From Dysosmobacter acutus (GTDB taxonomy: Bacteria; Bacillota; Clostridia; Oscillospirales; Oscillospiraceae): a DNA stretch of 64,000 nucleotides. The notes under the pieces were generated by a model. It was not told the origin of the DNA, did no database searches, and saw nothing but the letters and a program-made list of their open reading frames with translations. The stretch is from NCBI RefSeq assembly GCF_018919205.1, contig NZ_JAHLQN010000001.1, forward strand, positions 496,001 through 560,000. Reading direction: 5' to 3'. This document shows, piece after piece, positions 37,975 to 46,409 of the stretch; the stretch's first letter is position 1; each line of letters starts with the position of its first letter. The position numbers and the translations under genes are program-made.

Positions 37975-38619
37975 TCAGTCCTCCTTTTCAAAGCCCTCAT
38001 TGAGACGCGCCTCCACGTCTGAGAGGAACTGCGTCCAGGCGTCCTCATGGTCCACATAGTACTTGGGGCAGATTTTTCCTGTCACATCATAATGACGGAT
38101 GACGTCCTCATTTGGTTTCAAATGAAATGCGTCGCACAGCCAGGCCGTCAATTCCACCACCCGCCCATAGGTCACGCCGGAAAACTGTCCGGATTCGTCC
38201 GGGTGGCACACCTCCACGGCCACGGTGTCGTCGTTGCGGCCGTTGGAGGCGTATGCGATCTCTGTCAGGGGGATGCACTGGATGACCTCTCCCTCCAGCC
38301 CCACCACAAAGTGGGCGCTGGCAAAGGTGTTTTCCTCCCCGGTGGAGAGGGATTCAAAGTAGTTGCGGTTGGCCTGGGCCGAGGTGCCGGGGTTGCCCAC
38401 ATAGTGGATCACCACGCCCCGGACGTTCTTCAGCTTGTCGCCGGGCCGGGACCAGGGGTTTTCCGTGAGATACTGCTGCTCCACCCATTCGGGCGCCTGG
38501 ACGTCCGCCGGCCCCGCCGGGCGCAGCACCACCCACGCACCAACGGCGACAAAGGCAAGCGCCAGCAGCAGCGGCGCGGGGGGGACGCCCCGGCTTCTCT
38601 TTTTGTGTCGTGTCGCCAT
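37975..38619 (-). CDS. N-acetylmuramoyl-L-alanine amidase (amidase_2)
   Basis: A 214-residue protein with an N-terminal membrane anchor or uncleaved signal (APLLLALAFVAVGAWVVL) and an amidase_2/PGRP-like domain. Zinc-site residues are apparent in VVIHYVGNPG (His) and VIRHYDVTGKICPKYY (His, plus Lys/Cys). AHFVVGLEGEVIQCIPLTEIAYASNGRN is typical of this family. It should cleave the bond between MurNAc and L-Ala in peptidoglycan. The ATG follows a modest ribosome site. Confidence 0.87.
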   Translation of the reverse strand: MATRHKKRSRGVPPAPLLLALAFVAVGAWVVLRPAGPADVQAPEWVEQQYLTENPWSRPGDKLKNVRGVVIHYVGNPGTSAQANRNYFESLSTGEENTFASAHFVVGLEGEVIQCIPLTEIAYASNGRNDDTVAVEVCHPDESGQFSGVTYGRVVELTAWLCDAFHLKPNEDVIRHYDVTGKICPKYYVDHEDAWTQFLSDVEARLNEGFEKED

Positions 38620-38625
38620 AGAAAA

Positions 38626-40632
38626 TCAGGCTGCCTCCGCCACAAGGATTTCCGTGGGACCGTCGGCCCCGCCGATGATGGCTCCCCCTTCCGCCGAAGC
38701 CTCCTCATAGTCCGCGTTCATCTTTTCCTGAAGCTCCTTTTCAGTCATCAGCGGCCGGTCCTCACCGGCGACGCCAAGCTCCTCCAGGGCCTGGAGGGTG
38801 GAGCGCATGCAGGCGGTGAGCGGAATCCGGACATAGTGGGTCCTGCTGCGCTGGTCCGTAAGGCAGTATAGCTCCAGACTGTTGCTCATCTGGCTGTCCT
38901 CATCAAAGAGACCCTGCCCGGACCGGCCGGACCGGATGTCCGCCAGAATGGCCTCGGCCAGCGTCCTGGCCTCGTCTGTGGTCAGACTGTACCAGTTGTT
39001 GGAGGTGGAGCCCCGCTCGGAGACCGTGTAGTACTCAAACTCACCGCCGCTGACCCTGGTGAGGTCGCCGCCGTCAAGCATGTATTCGATCTGGGCCTTG
39101 GGATCGGCGCAGAACGTTTGCAGGGCGCAGACGGCGGACTTGCCGTCCGATACTTCCTCCTGCCGGTAGTAAATGGTGTAGCTCCGGCTCAGCTCACTGC
39201 CGCCTGCAAGGCGATAGGTGAGACGCAGGCTGGTGCGGGAATAGCCGGGCCGCTCTGCGTCCGGCGTCATGGGCCAGCGGTCATATTCCCGGGACCGGTC
39301 CATCTGAAGCTCTTTTTCCGCCACGGCATGGCTGTGGGCGTCCCGCAGCAGGTCGATCAGGAGGGGATCCTCCGTTTCACCGTCGATGTATTGAAAGGGG
39401 CCGTTGATGGAGTAGCCGAGACTCTGGATTTCCTCCGCGGCGGGCACTTTGGTCTCCAGGCCCAGCAGGTCCATGGACATGCAGACGCTGAGGACAAGCA
39501 GCACCACCGTCAGCACCGCGGCGCCCTTCCAGGAGGCGCGGAGCACCCGGAAGGACTTTCTCATCAGCATTTCCGCCGCGAAATAGCCCACAAGGCCCAT
39601 GAGGACCATGCACACCAGTACGCCCGTCAGGGAGTAGTCCGCCTGGAGCCGGTACTGACCCCAGGTCAGGTAATACAGCCCCTGCCCAAGACCCAAGGCG
39701 GAGCAGCAGGCCACGCCGTACTTGAATACCGGCTTTGCCCAGCCCTGGGCCACGGTGTCGCCGGCGGATTCGCTGTTTCTGCGGCAGTAGAGCGCCAAAG
39801 CCGCCAGGGCGAATCCCAGGCCCACAGCGGTATAGATCCACACGGCGCCCAGCCCCAGAATCCGGACGGAAACAATGGTCGTATAGCTTTCATCCCATAC
39901 ATATTCCACGCGCAGATTCCGGGAAAGATAGACCGCGGGCGAAAGCCGCAGCGCCCACATGGTGAATCCGCCGCTGCCTCCGGCGAGATAGCCGTAGAGG
40001 AAGATGGAGGAGAAGGTGCGCACCAGGTAGTCGATGCCGATTGCAAGGACGTTCCCCACGCCGAAAAACACGGGGATGGCCAGCACCTGGCCGGTGAACA
40101 TGGCGCACAGCACGCCGAAGGAGAAAAACAGCACCGCGAGGCAGCAGCTCACGCCCAGCCAGATCACCAGTTCCCGAAGGGGCATGCCCGCGCCGCCGGT
40201 GAGCAGCACCGCCCAGGTCAGGACAAAGACCAGCGCGTGGGCGGAGAAGAACATGAACAGCCCCGAGAGATAGTTGGTCCAGAAAAGGCCGGCGCGCCGG
40301 ATGGGCAGCGTGTGGACGAAGCCCACGGACCGGGCGGTGCAGAGGTAGCTGTAAAGGGCCATGGCCATCAGGCAGCCGAAGACCAGCGTCATAAAAATGG
40401 AGAAGCCGCTGGCGCTGTTGAGAATGTCCCAGGCCAGGTCGTCGTAGGAGAGGCTGGCGGGGTCGGCGTATCCGTTGTGCAGCTGGGTGAACAGGTTCAG
40501 CGGCAGGGCCAGCGTCCAGATCAGGGCGTAGGCGGCCCACAGCGGCCAGAACCGGCTTATATTCTTGCGGAACAAGGTGCCCGAGAGCAGGGGCATCCTG
40601 ATCAAATCAGAGGATGATGTCTTTGACTGCAT
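38626..40632 (-). CDS. ABC-2-type transporter permease with C-terminal IGGADGP motif
   Basis: A 668-residue permease with roughly ten hydrophobic segments in the first ~390 residues and a C-terminal soluble region. It is paired with the ATPase upstream (26-base overlap). The start is an ATG at 40632 with TGGGAGGTG upstream. Such GntR-linked exporters (YtrABCDEF-like) are often tied to envelope stress; the substrate is unknown. The last 20 residues contain I-I-G-G-A-D-G-P-T-E-I (38647-38679). This is nearly the same motif as in the uncharacterised protein at 44876-46351, and its DNA is almost identical. The motif is unexpected in a permease. Confidence 0.85.
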   Translation of the reverse strand: MQSKTSSSDLIRMPLLSGTLFRKNISRFWPLWAAYALIWTLALPLNLFTQLHNGYADPASLSYDDLAWDILNSASGFSIFMTLVFGCLMAMALYSYLCTARSVGFVHTLPIRRAGLFWTNYLSGLFMFFSAHALVFVLTWAVLLTGGAGMPLRELVIWLGVSCCLAVLFFSFGVLCAMFTGQVLAIPVFFGVGNVLAIGIDYLVRTFSSIFLYGYLAGGSGGFTMWALRLSPAVYLSRNLRVEYVWDESYTTIVSVRILGLGAVWIYTAVGLGFALAALALYCRRNSESAGDTVAQGWAKPVFKYGVACCSALGLGQGLYYLTWGQYRLQADYSLTGVLVCMVLMGLVGYFAAEMLMRKSFRVLRASWKGAAVLTVVLLVLSVCMSMDLLGLETKVPAAEEIQSLGYSINGPFQYIDGETEDPLLIDLLRDAHSHAVAEKELQMDRSREYDRWPMTPDAERPGYSRTSLRLTYRLAGGSELSRSYTIYYRQEEVSDGKSAVCALQTFCADPKAQIEYMLDGGDLTRVSGGEFEYYTVSERGSTSNNWYSLTTDEARTLAEAILADIRSGRSGQGLFDEDSQMSNSLELYCLTDQRSRTHYVRIPLTACMRSTLQALEELGVAGEDRPLMTEKELQEKMNADYEEASAEGGAIIGGADGPTEILVAEAA

Positions 40633-41503
40633 AGTCGGCACCTCCCAACTCATAAATGAAGATTTCCTCCAGCGTCAGCGGCACGGCGTCCGCCAGCAGG
40701 GGAGTGTATGTGGCAAGGCGGTTAGTGGCCTCCTCGGCCCCCATGCGCATGATCAGCGTGTGGATTCGGCCCACCCGGGAGGCGTGGAGCACGGGAAGCT
40801 CCGGGGGCACCTCGGTGACGCCGTCGGAGAAGACCACCTGCATTTTGACCATATTGTCCTGCAGCTGGGCCAGGGACCGCTCCAGGAGGACCTGGCCGTG
40901 GTTCATGATGCCCACGTGGTCGCATACATCCTCTAACTCCCGCAGGTTGTGAGAGGAGACCAGCACCGTGGTGCCCCGCTCGCTGACGTCGTTCATGATG
41001 AGGCCCCACACCTGGCGGCGCATCACCGGGTCCAGACCGTCCACCGGCTCATCCAACACCAGCACGTCCGGCAGACAGCACATGGCCAGCCAAAAGGCCA
41101 CCTGCTTCTGCATGCCCTTGCTCAGGCGGCGGATGGTGCGGTTTTCGTCGATTTCAAAGACCTCTTTCATTTTCTCATACCGCTCCATGGAGAAGCGGGG
41201 ATAAAACCCCCGGTAGAACCGCATCATATCCCGGGGGGAGGACTGGAGAAAGTAGTACCAGTCATCGGGGATGGCTGCGATGCGGGACTTGAGCGCCGGG
41301 TTCTCCCAGACCTTCTGCCCGTCGATGGCGATGGTGCCGGAGTCCTGGCGGTAAATGCCCGTCAGATGGCGGATCAGCGTGGATTTTCCCGCGCCGTTGG
41401 GGCCCACCAGCCCGTAGACCGCGCCTGCCGGCACGCTCAGGCTGGCCCCATCCAAAGCGGCAAAGCCGTCAAAGCGCTTGACGACATTGTTCACCTCAAT
41501 CAT
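40607..41503 (-). CDS. ABC transporter ATP-binding protein (YtrB-like)
   Basis: A 298-residue ABC ATPase. Walker A is GPNGAGKST near residue 35. The signature is the variant RLSKGMQKQ near 135, and Walker B is DVLVLDEPVDGLD near 155. The switch His is in VLVSSHNLREL. Length and the C-terminal extension match ATPases of YtrA-regulated exporters. The ATG at 41503 overlaps the GntR gene by eight bases. Confidence 0.93.
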   Translation of the reverse strand: MIEVNNVVKRFDGFAALDGASLSVPAGAVYGLVGPNGAGKSTLIRHLTGIYRQDSGTIAIDGQKVWENPALKSRIAAIPDDWYYFLQSSPRDMMRFYRGFYPRFSMERYEKMKEVFEIDENRTIRRLSKGMQKQVAFWLAMCCLPDVLVLDEPVDGLDPVMRRQVWGLIMNDVSERGTTVLVSSHNLRELEDVCDHVGIMNHGQVLLERSLAQLQDNMVKMQVVFSDGVTEVPPELPVLHASRVGRIHTLIMRMGAEEATNRLATYTPLLADAVPLTLEEIFIYELGGADYAVKDIIL

Positions 41504-41861
41504 TTCTTGCTCCTTCCCTGAACAGTGCTTCCAGATCCCGCTCCGCCACCTGAAGATAGCGCAGCTCGGCCAAGGTTTCCCTCACACGGTTCATCAGCTC
41601 TTCCTTCCGGGCCTGGTCCGCCTCCGGATTTCCCGCGGCGAAGCTTCCCTTGCCCTGCACGGAATAGATATAGCCCTCCGTCTCCAGCTCGTTATACGCC
41701 CGCTGGATGGTGTTGGGGTTGATGGCCAGCTGTGTTGCCAGCGCCCGCACTGAGGGCAGCCGGTCGTCCTTTGCCAGCGCACCGGTGACAATCAGCTTTT
41801 TCAGGCCGTCCCGTATCTGTTCGTAGATGGGCCGGGAGTCCCGATAGTTCAGACTGATCAT
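41496..41861 (-). CDS. GntR-family regulator (YtrA subfamily)
   Basis: A 121-residue short GntR regulator. The winged helix-turn-helix is at residues 10-75 (PIYEQIRDGLKKLIVTGAL, LPSVRALATQLAINPNTIQRAYNELETEGYIYSVQGKGSF). A short C-terminal dimerisation helix follows. The YtrA subfamily lacks a large effector domain and usually represses its own operon and the linked ABC genes. It is the first gene of this operon and has an inverted repeat in its promoter. Confidence 0.92.
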   Translation of the reverse strand: MISLNYRDSRPIYEQIRDGLKKLIVTGALAKDDRLPSVRALATQLAINPNTIQRAYNELETEGYIYSVQGKGSFAAGNPEADQARKEELMNRVRETLAELRYLQVAERDLEALFREGARND

Positions 41862-41888
41862 CCAATCACCTCCTGTTCATCGACTCCA

Positions 41889-41916
41889 ACTGTACTATTC
41901 GTACTAATACAGTCAA
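41889..41916 (-). promoter_or_regulatory. GntR operon promoter with overlapping operator
   Basis: TTGACT (41911-41916), a 16-base spacer and TACAGT (41889-41894) on the minus strand. The region 41889-41913 is an imperfect inverted repeat with outer arms ACTGTA / TACAGT and inner AGTAC / GAATAGT-like parts. A GntR dimer bound here would block polymerase, giving autorepression. Confidence 0.7.
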
Positions 41917-42022
41917 TATAGACCATTTCCCGCCTCCTGTCAAGTGCCGCTTTTTTGCCGCAAATTTCCTGAGAAAGATGGGGAAAACATTGAAAACTCA
42001 GTGATTTTTCGTAAAATTCCAC

Positions 42023-42050
42023 TTTACATCCGCCTTTTTTATGGTATAAT
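42023..42050 (+). promoter_or_regulatory. Promoter of rpsO
   Basis: TTTACA (42023-42028), a 16-base spacer and a perfect TATAAT (42045-42050). A GC-rich leader of about 110 bases follows (42057-42166), with a possible stem CCCGC/GCGGG. S15 mRNAs are often autoregulated through such leaders, but I cannot confirm a specific structure. Confidence 0.75.
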
Positions 42051-42166
42051 AAAAAAGCACGCGTATCAGGCGTGAATTTTAAACTGCCCCAGAGCTTGGC
42101 CCGCGGAAGGCTTCACCGGCCCGGGACTCAGCTTTGCGGGGACTTATGGAAAGGTGGACAAACCCC

Positions 42167-42433
42167 ATGATGCTGAAAGAGCAGAAGACGAAGATCATCA
42201 GCGAAAACCGCACCCACGAAAAGGACACCGGCTCCCCCGAGGTACAGGTGGCCATTTTGACCGAGCGCATCAACCAGCTCACCGAGCACATGAAGAAGAA
42301 CCCCCAGGATAAGCACTCCCAGAGAGGCCTTCTGAAGATGGTCGGTAAGCGCCGCAGCATGCTGGATTATCTCCAGCGCAAGGACATCGAGCGCTACCGC
42401 GCCCTGATTGCCAAGCTGGGCCTGCGTAAGTAA
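42167..42433 (+). CDS. rpsO: 30S ribosomal protein S15
   Basis: An 88-residue ribosomal protein that binds the central domain of 16S rRNA early in 30S assembly. Family sequence is plain: [51 protein letters not shown] and the C-terminal [13 protein letters not shown] chose the first ATG of ATGATG at 42167, with AAAGGTGG upstream; starting three bases later is equally possible. The rpsO-pnp order is conserved in bacteria. Confidence 0.97.
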
Positions 42434-42441
42434 TGGAAATG

Positions 42442-42476
42442 AGGGTGGTGTGGCATTGGCGCACCACCCTTTCTTT
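42442..42476 (+). terminator. Terminator/attenuator between rpsO and pnp
   Basis: Stem AGGGTGGTG / CACCACCCT (42442-42450 with 42462-42470) followed by TTCTTT. It may reduce read-through into pnp. The remaining ~160 bases to pnp contain no other element I recognise. Confidence 0.75.
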
Positions 42477-42638
42477 CATCCCTTTCTCCCGCGTCGCATG
42501 AGAGCCATACAAAGCCTTTAGCAGTTGAAGGAGCGCCTTTTTCAGCGCCGTATGATGAAGGAACGCTTTGCGGGGCGCCGCTTCAAGTGCTAATGGTTTG
42601 GCTCCCATGCGGAAAAAATTCTGTAAAGGAGACAAACC

Positions 42639-44789
42639 ATGTCAACCATCATCACCCAAAGACAATTCCCCGGCTGCCGCAGATACGAAATGGAGCTTGC
42701 CGGACGGCCCCTCTTCCTGGAGGTGGGCAAGCTGGCCGAGCTGGCCAACGCCGCCGTCATGGTGGGCTACGGCGACACCCGCGTGCTGGTGTGCGCCACC
42801 GCGGCTCCCCGTCCCCGGGACGGCATCGACTTCTTCCCCTTAAGCGTGGATTTTGAGGAGAAGATGTACTCTGTGGGCCGCATCCCCGGCAGCTTCAACC
42901 GCCGGGAGGGCCGCCCCGGTGAAAAGGGCGTTCTGACCGCCCGGGTCATTGACCGCCCCATCCGCCCCCTGTTCCCCTATGACTTCCGCAACGACGTGTC
43001 CATTATGGCCACGGTCATGAGCGTGGATCACGACTGCTCTCCGGAGGTCGCCGCCCTCATCGGCACCTCCGCCGCCCTGGCCATCTCCGACATTCCCTGG
43101 AACGGCCCCATCGGCGCGCTGAAGGTGGGCCTGGTGGACGGCAAGCTGGTCTTCAACCCCACCAGTGAACAGCGCAAGACCTCCGACCTGGACGTCACCG
43201 TGGTCTCCACCGGCAAGAAGGTGGTCATGATCGAGGCCGGCGCCAACGAGGTGGACAACGACACCATGTACGAGGCCATCCGCATGGCCCATGAGGAGAA
43301 CCAGAAGCAGATCGCCCTCATCAACCAGATGGTGAGCGAGATCGGCAAGCCCAAGTTCGACTATCCCCACGCGGACTTTGACCAGGAGCTCTTTGACAAG
43401 ATCGTCTCCGCCACCATGGACGAGGCCAGGGCCGCCATGGACACCGACGACAAGAACGTCCGGGAAGCCCGCTGGAACGCCCTGATCGACCACTGGCACG
43501 AGCTGTTCCTTGAGGACTATCCCAACATGGACCAGTACCTTGAGGAGATCACCTACAAGTTCCAGAAGAAGATCGTCAAGGCCTGGCTGCTGGAGGGCCA
43601 CCGTGTGGACGGCCGCAAGAGCAACGAGATCCGTCCCTTAAGCGCCGAGGTGGGCATCCTGCCCCGGGTCCACGGCTCCGGCCTTTTCACCCGCGGCCAG
43701 ACCCAGGTCCTCTCCGCCTGCACCTTGGACACCCTTTCCGCCGCCCAGAAGTTAGACACCATCTGGGAGGAGACGGAAAAGCGCTATATGCATCACTATA
43801 ATTTCCCCGGCTACAGCGTGGGCGAGGCCAAGCCCGCCCGCAGCCCCGGCCGCCGGGAGATCGGCCACGGCGCCCTGGCCGAGCGGGCGCTGCTGCCGGT
43901 GCTGCCCTCTGTGGAGGAGTTCCCCTATGCCATCCGCGTGGTCAGCGAGGTGGTCTCCTCCAACGGCTCCACCTCCCAGGGCTCCATCTGCGGCTCCACG
44001 CTGGCCCTCATGGACGCCGGCGTGCCCATCAAGGCCCCTGTGGCCGGCATCTCCTGCGGACTGATCCAGGATGACAACGGCGGCTTCACCACCTTCATCG
44101 ACATCCAGGGCGTGGAGGACTTCCACGGCGAGATGGACTTCAAGGTGGCCGGCACCAAGAAGGGCATCACCGCCATCCAGATGGACCTGAAGAACGACGG
44201 ACTGACCATGGAGATCATCCGCAACGCCTTGGACATCACCTACGACGCCCGCTGCGAGATTCTGGACCAGATCATGCTGCCCTGCATCGCCGCGCCCCGC
44301 AAGGAGGTCAGCAAGTACGCCCCCAAGATGATCACCATGCACATTGATCCCGACAAGATCCGGGAGGTCATCGGCTCCGGCGGTAAGGTCATCCAGAAGA
44401 TCGTGGCCGACACCGGCGCCAAGATCGACATCAACGACGACGGCTCCGTGTTCATCTCCGCCCCCAACCCCGAGTCCTGCGACGCCGCCAAGAAGTGCAT
44501 CGACGACATCGTGTTTGTGCCTGAGGTGGGATCGCTGTACTACGGCCGCGTGGTGCGCCTGATGACTTTCGGCGCCTTTGTGGAGCTGGCCCCCGGCAAG
44601 GACGGCCTGGTCCACATCTCCAAGCTGGCCGACCACCGCATCGAGAAGGTGGAGGACGCCTGCAAGATCGGCGACATGATGTGGGTCAAGGTCACCGAGA
44701 TCGACGAGAAGGGCCGCGTGAACCTCTCCCACAAGGACGCCATGAAGGAAATCGCCGCCAAGGAAGCGGCCGGCGAGCGCGTCAAGTAA
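42639..44789 (+). CDS. pnp: Polynucleotide phosphorylase
   Basis: A 716-residue 3'-5' phosphorolytic exoribonuclease of the RNA degradosome. Two RNase PH-like domains cover residues 1-230 and 300-545 (FFPLSVDFEEKMYSVGRIPGSFNRREGRP; GQTQVLSACTLDTL; SSNGSTSQGSICGSTLALMDAGVP). A KH domain (DKIREVIGSGGKVIQKIV) and an S1 domain (GSLYYGRVVRLMTFGAFVEL) end the protein. The ATG at 42639 has AAAGGAGA upstream. Confidence 0.98.
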   Translation: MSTIITQRQFPGCRRYEMELAGRPLFLEVGKLAELANAAVMVGYGDTRVLVCATAAPRPRDGIDFFPLSVDFEEKMYSVGRIPGSFNRREGRPGEKGVLTARVIDRPIRPLFPYDFRNDVSIMATVMSVDHDCSPEVAALIGTSAALAISDIPWNGPIGALKVGLVDGKLVFNPTSEQRKTSDLDVTVVSTGKKVVMIEAGANEVDNDTMYEAIRMAHEENQKQIALINQMVSEIGKPKFDYPHADFDQELFDKIVSATMDEARAAMDTDDKNVREARWNALIDHWHELFLEDYPNMDQYLEEITYKFQKKIVKAWLLEGHRVDGRKSNEIRPLSAEVGILPRVHGSGLFTRGQTQVLSACTLDTLSAAQKLDTIWEETEKRYMHHYNFPGYSVGEAKPARSPGRREIGHGALAERALLPVLPSVEEFPYAIRVVSEVVSSNGSTSQGSICGSTLALMDAGVPIKAPVAGISCGLIQDDNGGFTTFIDIQGVEDFHGEMDFKVAGTKKGITAIQMDLKNDGLTMEIIRNALDITYDARCEILDQIMLPCIAAPRKEVSKYAPKMITMHIDPDKIREVIGSGGKVIQKIVADTGAKIDINDDGSVFISAPNPESCDAAKKCIDDIVFVPEVGSLYYGRVVRLMTFGAFVELAPGKDGLVHISKLADHRIEKVEDACKIGDMMWVKVTEIDEKGRVNLSHKDAMKEIAAKEAAGERVK

Positions 44790-44800
44790 GCAAGCCAAAA

Positions 44801-44832
44801 GAGCGAAGGCCCAATGGCCTTCGCTCTTTTTC
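44801..44832. terminator. Terminator after pnp
   Basis: Stem GAGCGAAGGCC / GGCCTTCGCTC with loop CAAT, followed by TTTTTCTG on the plus strand. An A run precedes it on the other side, so it can also end the opposing gene. Confidence 0.88.
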
Positions 44833-44875
44833 TGTGGGGAGGTGCGAACGATTGCTTTTCTGCGGGACAAGGCGC

Positions 44876-46351
44876 TTACAGGAGGTCCACCGTTTGCTCC
44901 GGCAGGGTTCTGACCCGGAACTCCACGCGCCACTCCACCTCCGGCGGCGGTTCGAACCGGAGGGAGGAACAGGCGGCGCGCGGATTGGCCCCTCCCGCGG
45001 CGAATACGGCGACGGGACCATCGGCCCCGCCGATGACGCCCACGGCCGCCGCGCCATGGAAGCCCGAACCTCCTGCTTCACCCTCCCTGGGCCGGGGCGG
45101 GTCGCTTTCCCGGCAATCCCGGACCAGGAAGCCGTCCTGCGGCAGGTCCGGCAAAAGGTGGTAGCGCAGCAGGCAAAGGTGGGTGGGAACGTCCGTCCCC
45201 TCCTCCCGGAAACAGTCGGAGGAGAGCTCCTGAGGAGCGCATTCGTCTACAACCAGCGTATGGCGCGCACCGGTGACGGGATGGGTGAAGGAGACGGAAT
45301 CGCCGGCTCCTGAGACGTGGAACCGGGGTCCGGGGAGGGAGAGCGGCTCCTGGCGCAGCGTTGCCTGAAGGGAGCGCAGGACCGGCGGGCGGGATGTAGC
45401 CCAGCGGAAGGACCGGCGCAGCAGAATCCAGCCATAGGACGGGTCCAGGCCGTAGTGGGCCAGGATGTCCCGGGCCTCCCGCTCCTGCATCTCCTCCGGC
45501 AGGCAGGGGTTCCAGGCAATACCGCAGCCATGGTGGCCGGACAGGGCCCTTCCGTTGACCGCCATCCGGGTGTCCACATCCAGGGACAAAGGGTTTTCCG
45601 CCTCCAGTTCCATCCGCTGCTCATCGGTGAGCGTCGGTTCGCCGCGCTCCGGGGAGAGGTCCCACTTGTTCAAGAAGGCGCGGATCCGCTCCGGCGCCAC
45701 CCGGGCGCAGAAGTCCGCCACCAGCCCCTTGCCGCAGACGTAGACCGCCGGGACCTGCCACAGTGCGTCTGCCCAGGAAAAGGATTTTCGGACGGGGATC
45801 TCACGGCCGGCCCGTTCCCGGCCGTGGCGGCCCCAAAAGCCGCCGGAATAGAAGACCTTCCACTCCTGCGGCCTCTCCGGCGGCAGGGCGGGGGACGGGA
45901 TTGGCGCGCTCAGCTGGCTGAGGTCAATCTCTTCCTGAAGAGCCTGAATATAGGAAAAGGGGTCCTCCATGGGCTTCAGGTCCAGTTCGCGGCGCAGCGC
46001 CTCCAGCCGCTCCGGATTCTCCGGCGGGTTATGCAGCAGGAAATCGCTGAACTGCTCCCGGGACCAGCCGGGCGCCTGCTCCGCGGCCGCAAAGCCGCCG
46101 CAGGAGAGCAGGAGGGACAGAAAGTCCCGGAAGTTTCGGGCCAGGGGCCGCACATACTCCCCCGGGGCGTTCATAGGGCTCACGGAGAATATCGTCTCCC
46201 CGAAGCCGGGGGCCGTGCAGCAGTGGATGCCGTCCACCCCGGCCCAGCCGATGATCCGGGCGCCCTTTGGCGTGCAGAAATAGCCGCTTTCTTCACTGCC
46301 CGCCTCCAGCCCCAGAGGCGAAAGGTCGATGCGGGTCCAGTCTGATTTCAT
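44876..46351 (-). CDS. Uncharacterised 491-residue protein with an IGGADGP motif
   Basis: I do not recognise this protein. It has no signal peptide or membrane helix. The N-terminal third (GYFCTPKGARIIGWAGVDGIHCC, FSVSPMNAPGEYVRPLARNFRDFLSLLLSCGG) has the look of a SUKH/SMI1-like module. The C-terminal third contains SFTHPVTGARHTLVVDECAPQ and ends in a beta-rich segment. Between them, at about residues 440-455, is V-I-G-G-A-D-G-P-V-A-V-F (45002-45037), flanked by Gly/Ala. That motif recurs at the C-terminus of the ABC permease in this window. The ATG at 46351 has GAGGGAG upstream. It stands alone between pnp and ppa. Confidence 0.7.
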   Translation of the reverse strand: MKSDWTRIDLSPLGLEAGSEESGYFCTPKGARIIGWAGVDGIHCCTAPGFGETIFSVSPMNAPGEYVRPLARNFRDFLSLLLSCGGFAAAEQAPGWSREQFSDFLLHNPPENPERLEALRRELDLKPMEDPFSYIQALQEEIDLSQLSAPIPSPALPPERPQEWKVFYSGGFWGRHGRERAGREIPVRKSFSWADALWQVPAVYVCGKGLVADFCARVAPERIRAFLNKWDLSPERGEPTLTDEQRMELEAENPLSLDVDTRMAVNGRALSGHHGCGIAWNPCLPEEMQEREARDILAHYGLDPSYGWILLRRSFRWATSRPPVLRSLQATLRQEPLSLPGPRFHVSGAGDSVSFTHPVTGARHTLVVDECAPQELSSDCFREEGTDVPTHLCLLRYHLLPDLPQDGFLVRDCRESDPPRPREGEAGGSGFHGAAAVGVIGGADGPVAVFAAGGANPRAACSSLRFEPPPEVEWRVEFRVRTLPEQTVDLL

Positions 46352-46395
46352 GAACTCCCTCTTTTCTTTGAAGCTTAAGGGACATTGTAATCCCA

Positions 46396-46409
46396 TTTTC
46401 CCGGGAAAT
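46396..46409. other. Noc-binding-site-like palindrome
   Basis: TTTTCCCGGGAAAT matches the B. subtilis Noc site ATTTCCCGGGAAAT at 13 of 14 positions. It lies in an intergenic stretch. One site alone is weak evidence, but a Noc paralogue is encoded 13 kb away. Confidence 0.4.

Follow-up and report, generated by a model that had tools for sequence, protein, structure and literature searches.

A segment of the decarboxylase subunit OadB recurs in unrelated proteins, mainly of gut Clostridia

Introduction

Why should two unrelated proteins of one genome contain the same short motif, encoded by nearly the same DNA? The question is raised by a 64,000-nucleotide stretch of Dysosmobacter acutus DNA (NCBI RefSeq assembly GCF_018919205.1, contig NZ_JAHLQN010000001.1, positions 496,001 to 560,000 of the forward strand), which is referred to as a whole as the window. 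A reading of its sequence alone (the original prediction) had pointed out the motif IGGADGP in a permease and in an uncharacterised protein. The computational analysis reported here found that the motif belongs to a segment of about 17 residues that matches part of OadB (the beta subunit in decarboxylases that pump sodium). This segment, termed the tag, is dispersed among many unrelated proteins, with orthologues that contain it and orthologues that do not. Among the near-complete genomes counted, tags were confined to those bearing OadB. We tentatively consider IGGADGP to be a recognition tag that acts at the protein level and is linked with the decarboxylase. Short dispersed motifs have earlier led to whole sorting systems, namely those of sortase, exosortase and rhombosortase. 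No account of IGGADGP as a dispersed tag was found in the open-licence literature, which was covered partly through titles and the beginnings of abstracts.

Two unrelated window proteins share the IGGADGP motif

Both proteins are encoded on the minus strand. The first host is a membrane protein of 675 amino acids (38626..40653), named an ABC-2-like permease from its sequence and from weak family matches below the cut-offs. Its tag (residues 657-673; 38635..38685) has the IGGADGP core at 38656-38676, close to the C-terminus and with nine residues behind the core. The motif was thus where it had been reported, whereas the protein does not end with IIGGADGPTEI: six more residues follow (...LVAEAA), and the longest open reading frame (ORF) starts at 40653. 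The second host is an uncharacterised ORF of 506 amino acids (44876..46396). Its tag (44996..45046, with the core at 45014-45034) occupies a variable loop not far from the C-terminus and has V in place of the final T of IGGADGPT. A simple hydropathy rule detected no signal peptide or transmembrane helix in this protein, and family scans gave no match except weak matches of decarboxylase beta-subunit models on the tag itself; PF03977, with a cut-off of 31.6 bits, scored 15.8 bits over the 22 ORF residues 447-468. For the permease, no PF03977 match was obtained at E values up to 1, and neither window protein contains the full beta-subunit domain over the Pfam cut-off. BLASTP between the two proteins aligned only the motif (9/17 identical, E 0.027), plus noise.

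A degenerate GGADGP pattern matches the window at two minus-strand sites and nowhere else (38657-38673 and 45015-45031). Shuffling the window 100 times gave 0.04 matches on average, and no shuffle reached two. The occurrence of IGGADGP in two otherwise unrelated proteins was therefore confirmed by ORF reading, BLASTP and shuffling. The near-identity of their DNA was confirmed as well, with 23 common bases and one difference (TCATCGGCGGGGCCGA[C/T]GGTCCC). This near-identity is not remarkable, because across 126 sequence segments the motif's third codon positions differ greatly, with entropies of 1.4-1.95 bits, or 0.88 for Asp, whose codon is two-fold (L283 is represented among the 126 by its OadB and not by its tag). 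Local copying between the two genes, which lie 6.4 kb apart, was not supported, as each tag is common to homologues in other genomes, and the closeness of the two tags is probably due to chance.

The motif is dispersed outside OadB

In the genome that holds the window, the pattern matched four times and its reversed form not at all. Two of the matches were those of the window, and a third lay in a true OadB (530 bits to PF03977). The fourth was in a stop-to-stop frame of 73 codons, where the motif stands between a lipobox-like Cys and a single transmembrane helix followed by KRKR; this frame has no ATG and, judged by its sequence, would code for a small membrane protein. A search over relatives, as had been proposed with the original prediction, gave 62 pattern matches in this genome and 59 others, of which, on inspection of every one, 39 lay in OadB and 23 elsewhere, and the reversed pattern again matched nowhere; 15 further genomes gave 35 pattern matches and one control match. 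Genomes with any tag contained one to three exact copies each.

At least 120 more loci came from the scan of a genome collection, in which the base following the motif had been used to filter out most OadB, so that its counts are not frequencies and its position +8 is biased. After removal of duplicates and of nine loci regarded as noise (L087, L100, L109, L113, L139, L158, L178, L183 and L187), 85 OadB and 95 tags were left, and later loci brought the tags to 138. Profile matches without the motif (L269, L272, L280, L318 and L324) were also dropped, some of which may be decayed tags. Among the tags found by profile, 31/36 read IGGADGPT, a count not used as evidence that Asp is retained, since the acceptance pattern already demanded Asp/Glu and Gly-Pro. 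Tag loci among the 80 listed record titles were nearly all from Clostridia, the exceptions being L092, from a Treponema, and L118, whose record bears the label Bacteroides. With an insensitive query of 23 residues, a phage collection gave one record (E 0.5) and a plasmid collection none; a viral collection gave 11 IMG/VR stretches, four of which were judged to be noise (L288, L291, L292 and L298). In L148 and L162, a second, degenerate copy stands about 15-25 residues behind the first (IGSADSPTFILV; IGGADGATDIVI), as if units could duplicate.

Chance or composition, that is, Gly/Ala-rich sequence in G+C-rich genomes, is a highly improbable source of these matches. It may account for a few, such as the tail of the GTPase L024 and the nine dropped loci, but the window shuffles, the lack of any reversed-pattern match in 60 genomes, the agreement outside the motif and the retention of the tag by orthologues all argue against it as a general explanation. 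Convergent low-complexity sequence, which had been suggested at first, found no support, whereas the suggestion of a dispersed tag gained it from dozens of unrelated hosts, from orthologues with and without the motif and from these controls.

The tag corresponds to the sodium-binding hairpin tip of OadB

The tag consensus covers about 17 residues, S-[VI]-[GSA]-[IV]-IGGADGP-T-[SA]-[IV]-F-[VI]-[AST]-G. At positions -4 to +12, which were mostly left unfixed by the search, the residue preferences were alike in OadB and in tags. On alignment to PDB 6iva, the motif Asp corresponds to residue 203. According to excerpts of PMC7274780, Asp203 lies at the tip of the helical hairpin H1, and the D203A mutation abolishes Na+ binding. 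The link to decarboxylase beta subunits that had been mentioned in the original prediction, and set aside as a similarity, was therefore right and closer than a resemblance, as about 17 positions agree and the motif is the tip of the Na+-binding hairpin. Tag and OadB (OAD_beta; PF03977, TIGR01109; PDB 6iva and 6iww) have this segment with its Na+ ligand in common, but OadB possesses the full OAD_beta domain of 349 positions, the remainder of which was absent from the scanned hosts.

Another conserved OadB segment, GAMTDF, which served as a control, is not dispersed: all 38 of its matches in the same 60 genomes lay inside OadB (38/38, compared by eye). The second OadB of the window's genome (L332) reads IGAADGPT instead of IGGADGPT, and the tags follow the form of the first paralogue.

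Short partial matches to PF03977 or TIGR01109 at about profile positions 100-135 are tags, not decarboxylases, and in G146, G111, G093 and G439 tags score even over the Pfam cut-off. Automatic annotation may misname tag proteins as decarboxylases, and the tag offers an explanation for such partial matches in other proteins.

Tags occur in diverse, mostly membrane-associated hosts

With the tag masked, BLASTP grouped the 138 hosts into 68 clusters, 35 of them with a member ORF of at least 150 amino acids; the ORFs were counted from stop to stop, and small membrane proteins were probably over-split. A Pfam scan of 20 hosts found another domain over its cut-off in 14. These domains included HAAS, HTH_3, SBP_bac_3, SBP_bac_1, SLH, DsbD_TM, PGA_cap, LGT, Cu_amine_oxidN1, Peptidase_M56, Pro_isomerase and MMR_HSR1, the last in L024, whose motif match may be due to chance. 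The hosts are mostly membrane-associated and come mainly from gut Clostridia. By simple hydropathy rules, applied without a control set, 87/138 tags lie within 25 residues of a predicted transmembrane helix, signal peptide or lipobox. The more specific idea of a terminal tag was not supported, since tags also occur behind lipoboxes, between helices and in loops. In the 19-member cluster, the tag stands at an N-terminus that looks cytoplasmic and is twice fused behind Lgt, and in the 12-member cluster of the second window protein it stands in a variable loop.

The frequent position beside a membrane anchor could indicate a membrane-proximal sorting or processing signal, as in LPXTG, PEP-CTERM and GlyGly-CTERM, with a membrane protease or transpeptidase that cuts or transfers the host. 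We regard this as unlikely. Such a signal would explain the 42/138 tags that are followed in order by a hydrophobic helix, a basic cluster and the protein end, and the 22/138 that stand behind a lipobox. In addition, the small protein of the 73-codon frame in the window's genome exceeds the cut-off of the LPXTG anchor model TIGR01167 (21.3 vs 15.9 bits). It would explain neither the two large clusters that look mostly cytoplasmic nor the match to OadB. The other 96 tags and both window proteins lack this order, and in 17/138 cases no more than 22 residues separate the tag from the C-terminus, too few for a helix behind it. The small number of exact copies per genome and the lack of a recurring neighbour enzyme over 113 loci also argue against it. 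According to excerpts of PMC3237569, rhombosortase lies at most one gene from its target in 16/21 single-target genomes. The LPXTG, PEP-CTERM and GlyGly-CTERM/rhombosortase systems likewise have a short motif in unrelated proteins, in the order seen in 42/138 tags. The IGGADGP tags differ from signals of that type in not being only C-terminal, in occurring on both membrane sides and in having no recurrent adjacent enzyme; as a group they showed neither the succession of motif, transmembrane helix and basic residues at the extreme C-terminus nor an adjacent enzyme for single targets.

The diversity of the hosts, the few copies, the many small ORFs (39/138 under 150 amino acids) and the confinement to OadB-bearing genomes among those counted would also suit a decoy or mimic, which titrates an attacker or binder of OadB (for example a bacteriocin) or is freed as a signalling peptide. 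This seems very improbable: direct evidence for it is lacking, the cytoplasmic hosts are unfit for a surface decoy, and a search for defence families in 10 hosts found none, save helix-turn-helix models in one.

In L078 and L096 (about 3894-5309 of L096), prolipoprotein diacylglyceryl transferase (LGT) is joined through the tag to a domain of about 170 residues. In other hosts this domain is not fused and follows a tag at the N-terminus; it gave no Pfam match in L117 and L096. Small tagged genes were found in housekeeping operons, with hprK downstream in L073, between the genes of a ROK kinase and murB in L279 (and, by position, in L285) and between ylxM and ffh in L283, the neighbours being named from their sequences. 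Other small genes made of a tag plus a helix follow suf-like genes in L277 and a recD2-like gene in L282; L283, L279, L277 and L282 have tight operon seats and differing helix sequences. A serine-recombinase family recurs in L123, L153, L210 and L215, beside unrelated hosts, perhaps simply a reflection of how common such genes are.

Tags co-occur with OadB

OadB was called where PF03977 exceeded its cut-off. A tag was called where a weaker PF03977 match included the motif itself or the closely similar IGG[S/P/E/Y]DGP. Exact-pattern matches were added for the 60 relatives, the only genomes searched for them. Among the relatives that were at least 90% complete, tags were present in 12/29 genomes with OadB and in 0/9 without it. 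The corresponding counts were 19/86 and 0/32 for genomes from the order of G060 (L116, a Lachnospiraceae record), and 19/76 and 0/12 for a second draw from the order of the window. Their union without duplicates, sorted by hand, gave 46/177 and 0/48 (one-sided Fisher test, P = 3.7e-6, which ignores relatedness and genome size). Among permeases with a readable C-terminus and a known OadB state, an intact or degenerate tag was found in 11/22 from OadB-bearing genomes and 0/5 from the others (P = 0.054); three of these five form one clade, G004 and G031 are 76% and 84% complete, and L244 and L248 were omitted.

Presence, absence and conservation of the tag among homologues

The comparison of homologues that had been suggested showed that orthologues with and without the motif exist. 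In a tree of 29 permease homologues, the tag was intact in 7, degenerate in 4 (for example IIGGADEFTGVFVTG) and absent in 18, one of which, L248, is cut short; the partial L253 was omitted. The intact state required at least three changes on well-supported branches. L225 lacks the tag inside an otherwise intact clade, and in its genome, G023 (90% complete), no OadB was found. In the family of the second window protein, L255 lacks only the central part of the tag, SVGVI being followed directly by LATGK, in a genome with OadB, while L258 and L256 lack the tag in genomes with and without OadB, respectively.

The largest host family was detected in 0/118 genomes in a first search and in 5/61 genomes around G063. 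A tag-free query for the 19-member family retrieved seven loci including its own, and all seven had the tag, one gene being frameshifted. Among six full-length members (15 non-independent pairs), the tag showed 24 nonsynonymous to 106 synonymous codon differences, a ratio of 0.23, compared with 1314 to 635, or 2.07, outside it. The amino acids of the tag are themselves under purifying selection in this family, which is the strongest such evidence obtained here.

Conservation at the DNA level was slight. Only 42/1656 tag-tag alignments between families extended more than 15 bases beyond the tag, and 57/3391 tag-OadB alignments extended beyond it, for example in L133 (L283, which also holds OadB, was left out). 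Codon likeness between tag and OadB of the same genome was 0.528, compared with 0.481 after shuffling (35 pairs; 46/5000 shuffles as high). Tags are as a rule not recent copies, because codons within a genome are only slightly closer than shuffled ones and flanks are seldom common. The diverged codons and seldom-common flanks likewise speak against a mobile DNA element in the simple form that had first been proposed.

Tags could be functionless inserts derived from OadB: part of oadB, or an existing tag, would have been duplicated in frame into a linker or tail that tolerates it, to persist there until it decays. The presence of tags only in OadB-bearing genomes (the donors) among those counted, their scattered presence with degenerate copies in the permease tree, the few alignments that exceed the tag and the serine recombinase in 4/113 loci are consistent with such inserts, which would explain the OadB link and the decay. 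They would not explain the purifying selection, and the control OadB segment that stays in place, the lack of recent copies and the few phage, plasmid and viral matches further make this origin rather unlikely. Rickettsia palindromic elements are in-frame coding elements and provide an analogy for inserts that linger. Like the tags, these elements and the PARCELs (PMC2996958) are short in-frame coding units in unrelated, often membrane-targeted proteins. The tags differ from them in being conserved as protein and not as DNA, in usually occurring as a single copy and in showing few signs of mobile elements; they stand in frame in unrelated proteins, but common element DNA was not found.

A possible recognition tag

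The best explanation, which we hold with some reserve, is that of a recognition tag. In bacteria that possess OadB, Clostridia for the most part, the sequence of the H1 hairpin tip would have been built repeatedly into proteins of unrelated families, usually beside a membrane anchor, and kept at the protein level. There it may serve for docking or recognition by the decarboxylase complex or by something that also handles OadB, and the host protein would be brought to, or governed by, this partner. A recognition tag would account for the selection, the host diversity, the membrane-side position and the dependence on OadB. It is conceivable, if doubtful, that the ion-binding hairpin tip of the pump has been turned into a portable address label. 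Envelope regulators, lipoproteins, tiny membrane proteins and proteins of transport would then be coupled by it to the pump or to the sodium state of the pump.

Several points weigh against a recognition tag tied to the decarboxylase. The co-occurrence test does not correct for relatedness and genome size, and the window's own genome and G060, both tag-bearing, were chosen as sampling centres because of their tags. Four uncounted genomes, 56-84% complete (G002, G026, G027 and G031), have a tag without an OadB over the cut-off and may reflect gaps or be counter-examples. OadB-bearing genomes might simply be donors of tag sequence, and collection by exact pattern favours intact motifs. The tag is degenerate or absent in the permeases of many OadB-bearing genomes, and the family of the second window protein lacks it in two of them, G033 and G036. 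Tags occur on both membrane sides, and the 19- and 12-member clusters look mostly cytoplasmic. The H1 tip lies within the core domain of OadB, which makes it puzzling what would read it as a free peptide, and the evidence for purifying selection comes from a single family. Among 113 tag loci, most of only 3-10 kb, no neighbouring enzyme or partner recurred, the widest non-host families being generic (ABC-type ATPases in 7, serine recombinase in 4).

If the address label is real, part of a catalytic site would serve as the code of a tag system. Among dispersed motifs, IGGADGP is unusual in three traits: a sequence that is the Na+-binding loop of an enzyme, freedom from the protein terminus and a few copies per genome in different hosts. 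It also poses the testable question of which partner reads it.

Genes beside the permease

The permease gene is part of an operon on the minus strand with genes for an ABC transporter ATPase (40607..41503) and a GntR-type regulator (41496..41861), both named from a reading of their ORFs. On its other side, also on the minus strand, lies an N-acetylmuramoyl-L-alanine-amidase-like gene (37975-38619), likewise named from its sequence. Five further tag loci (L037, L038, L063, L064 and L065) also have members of one amidase-like family close to the permease.

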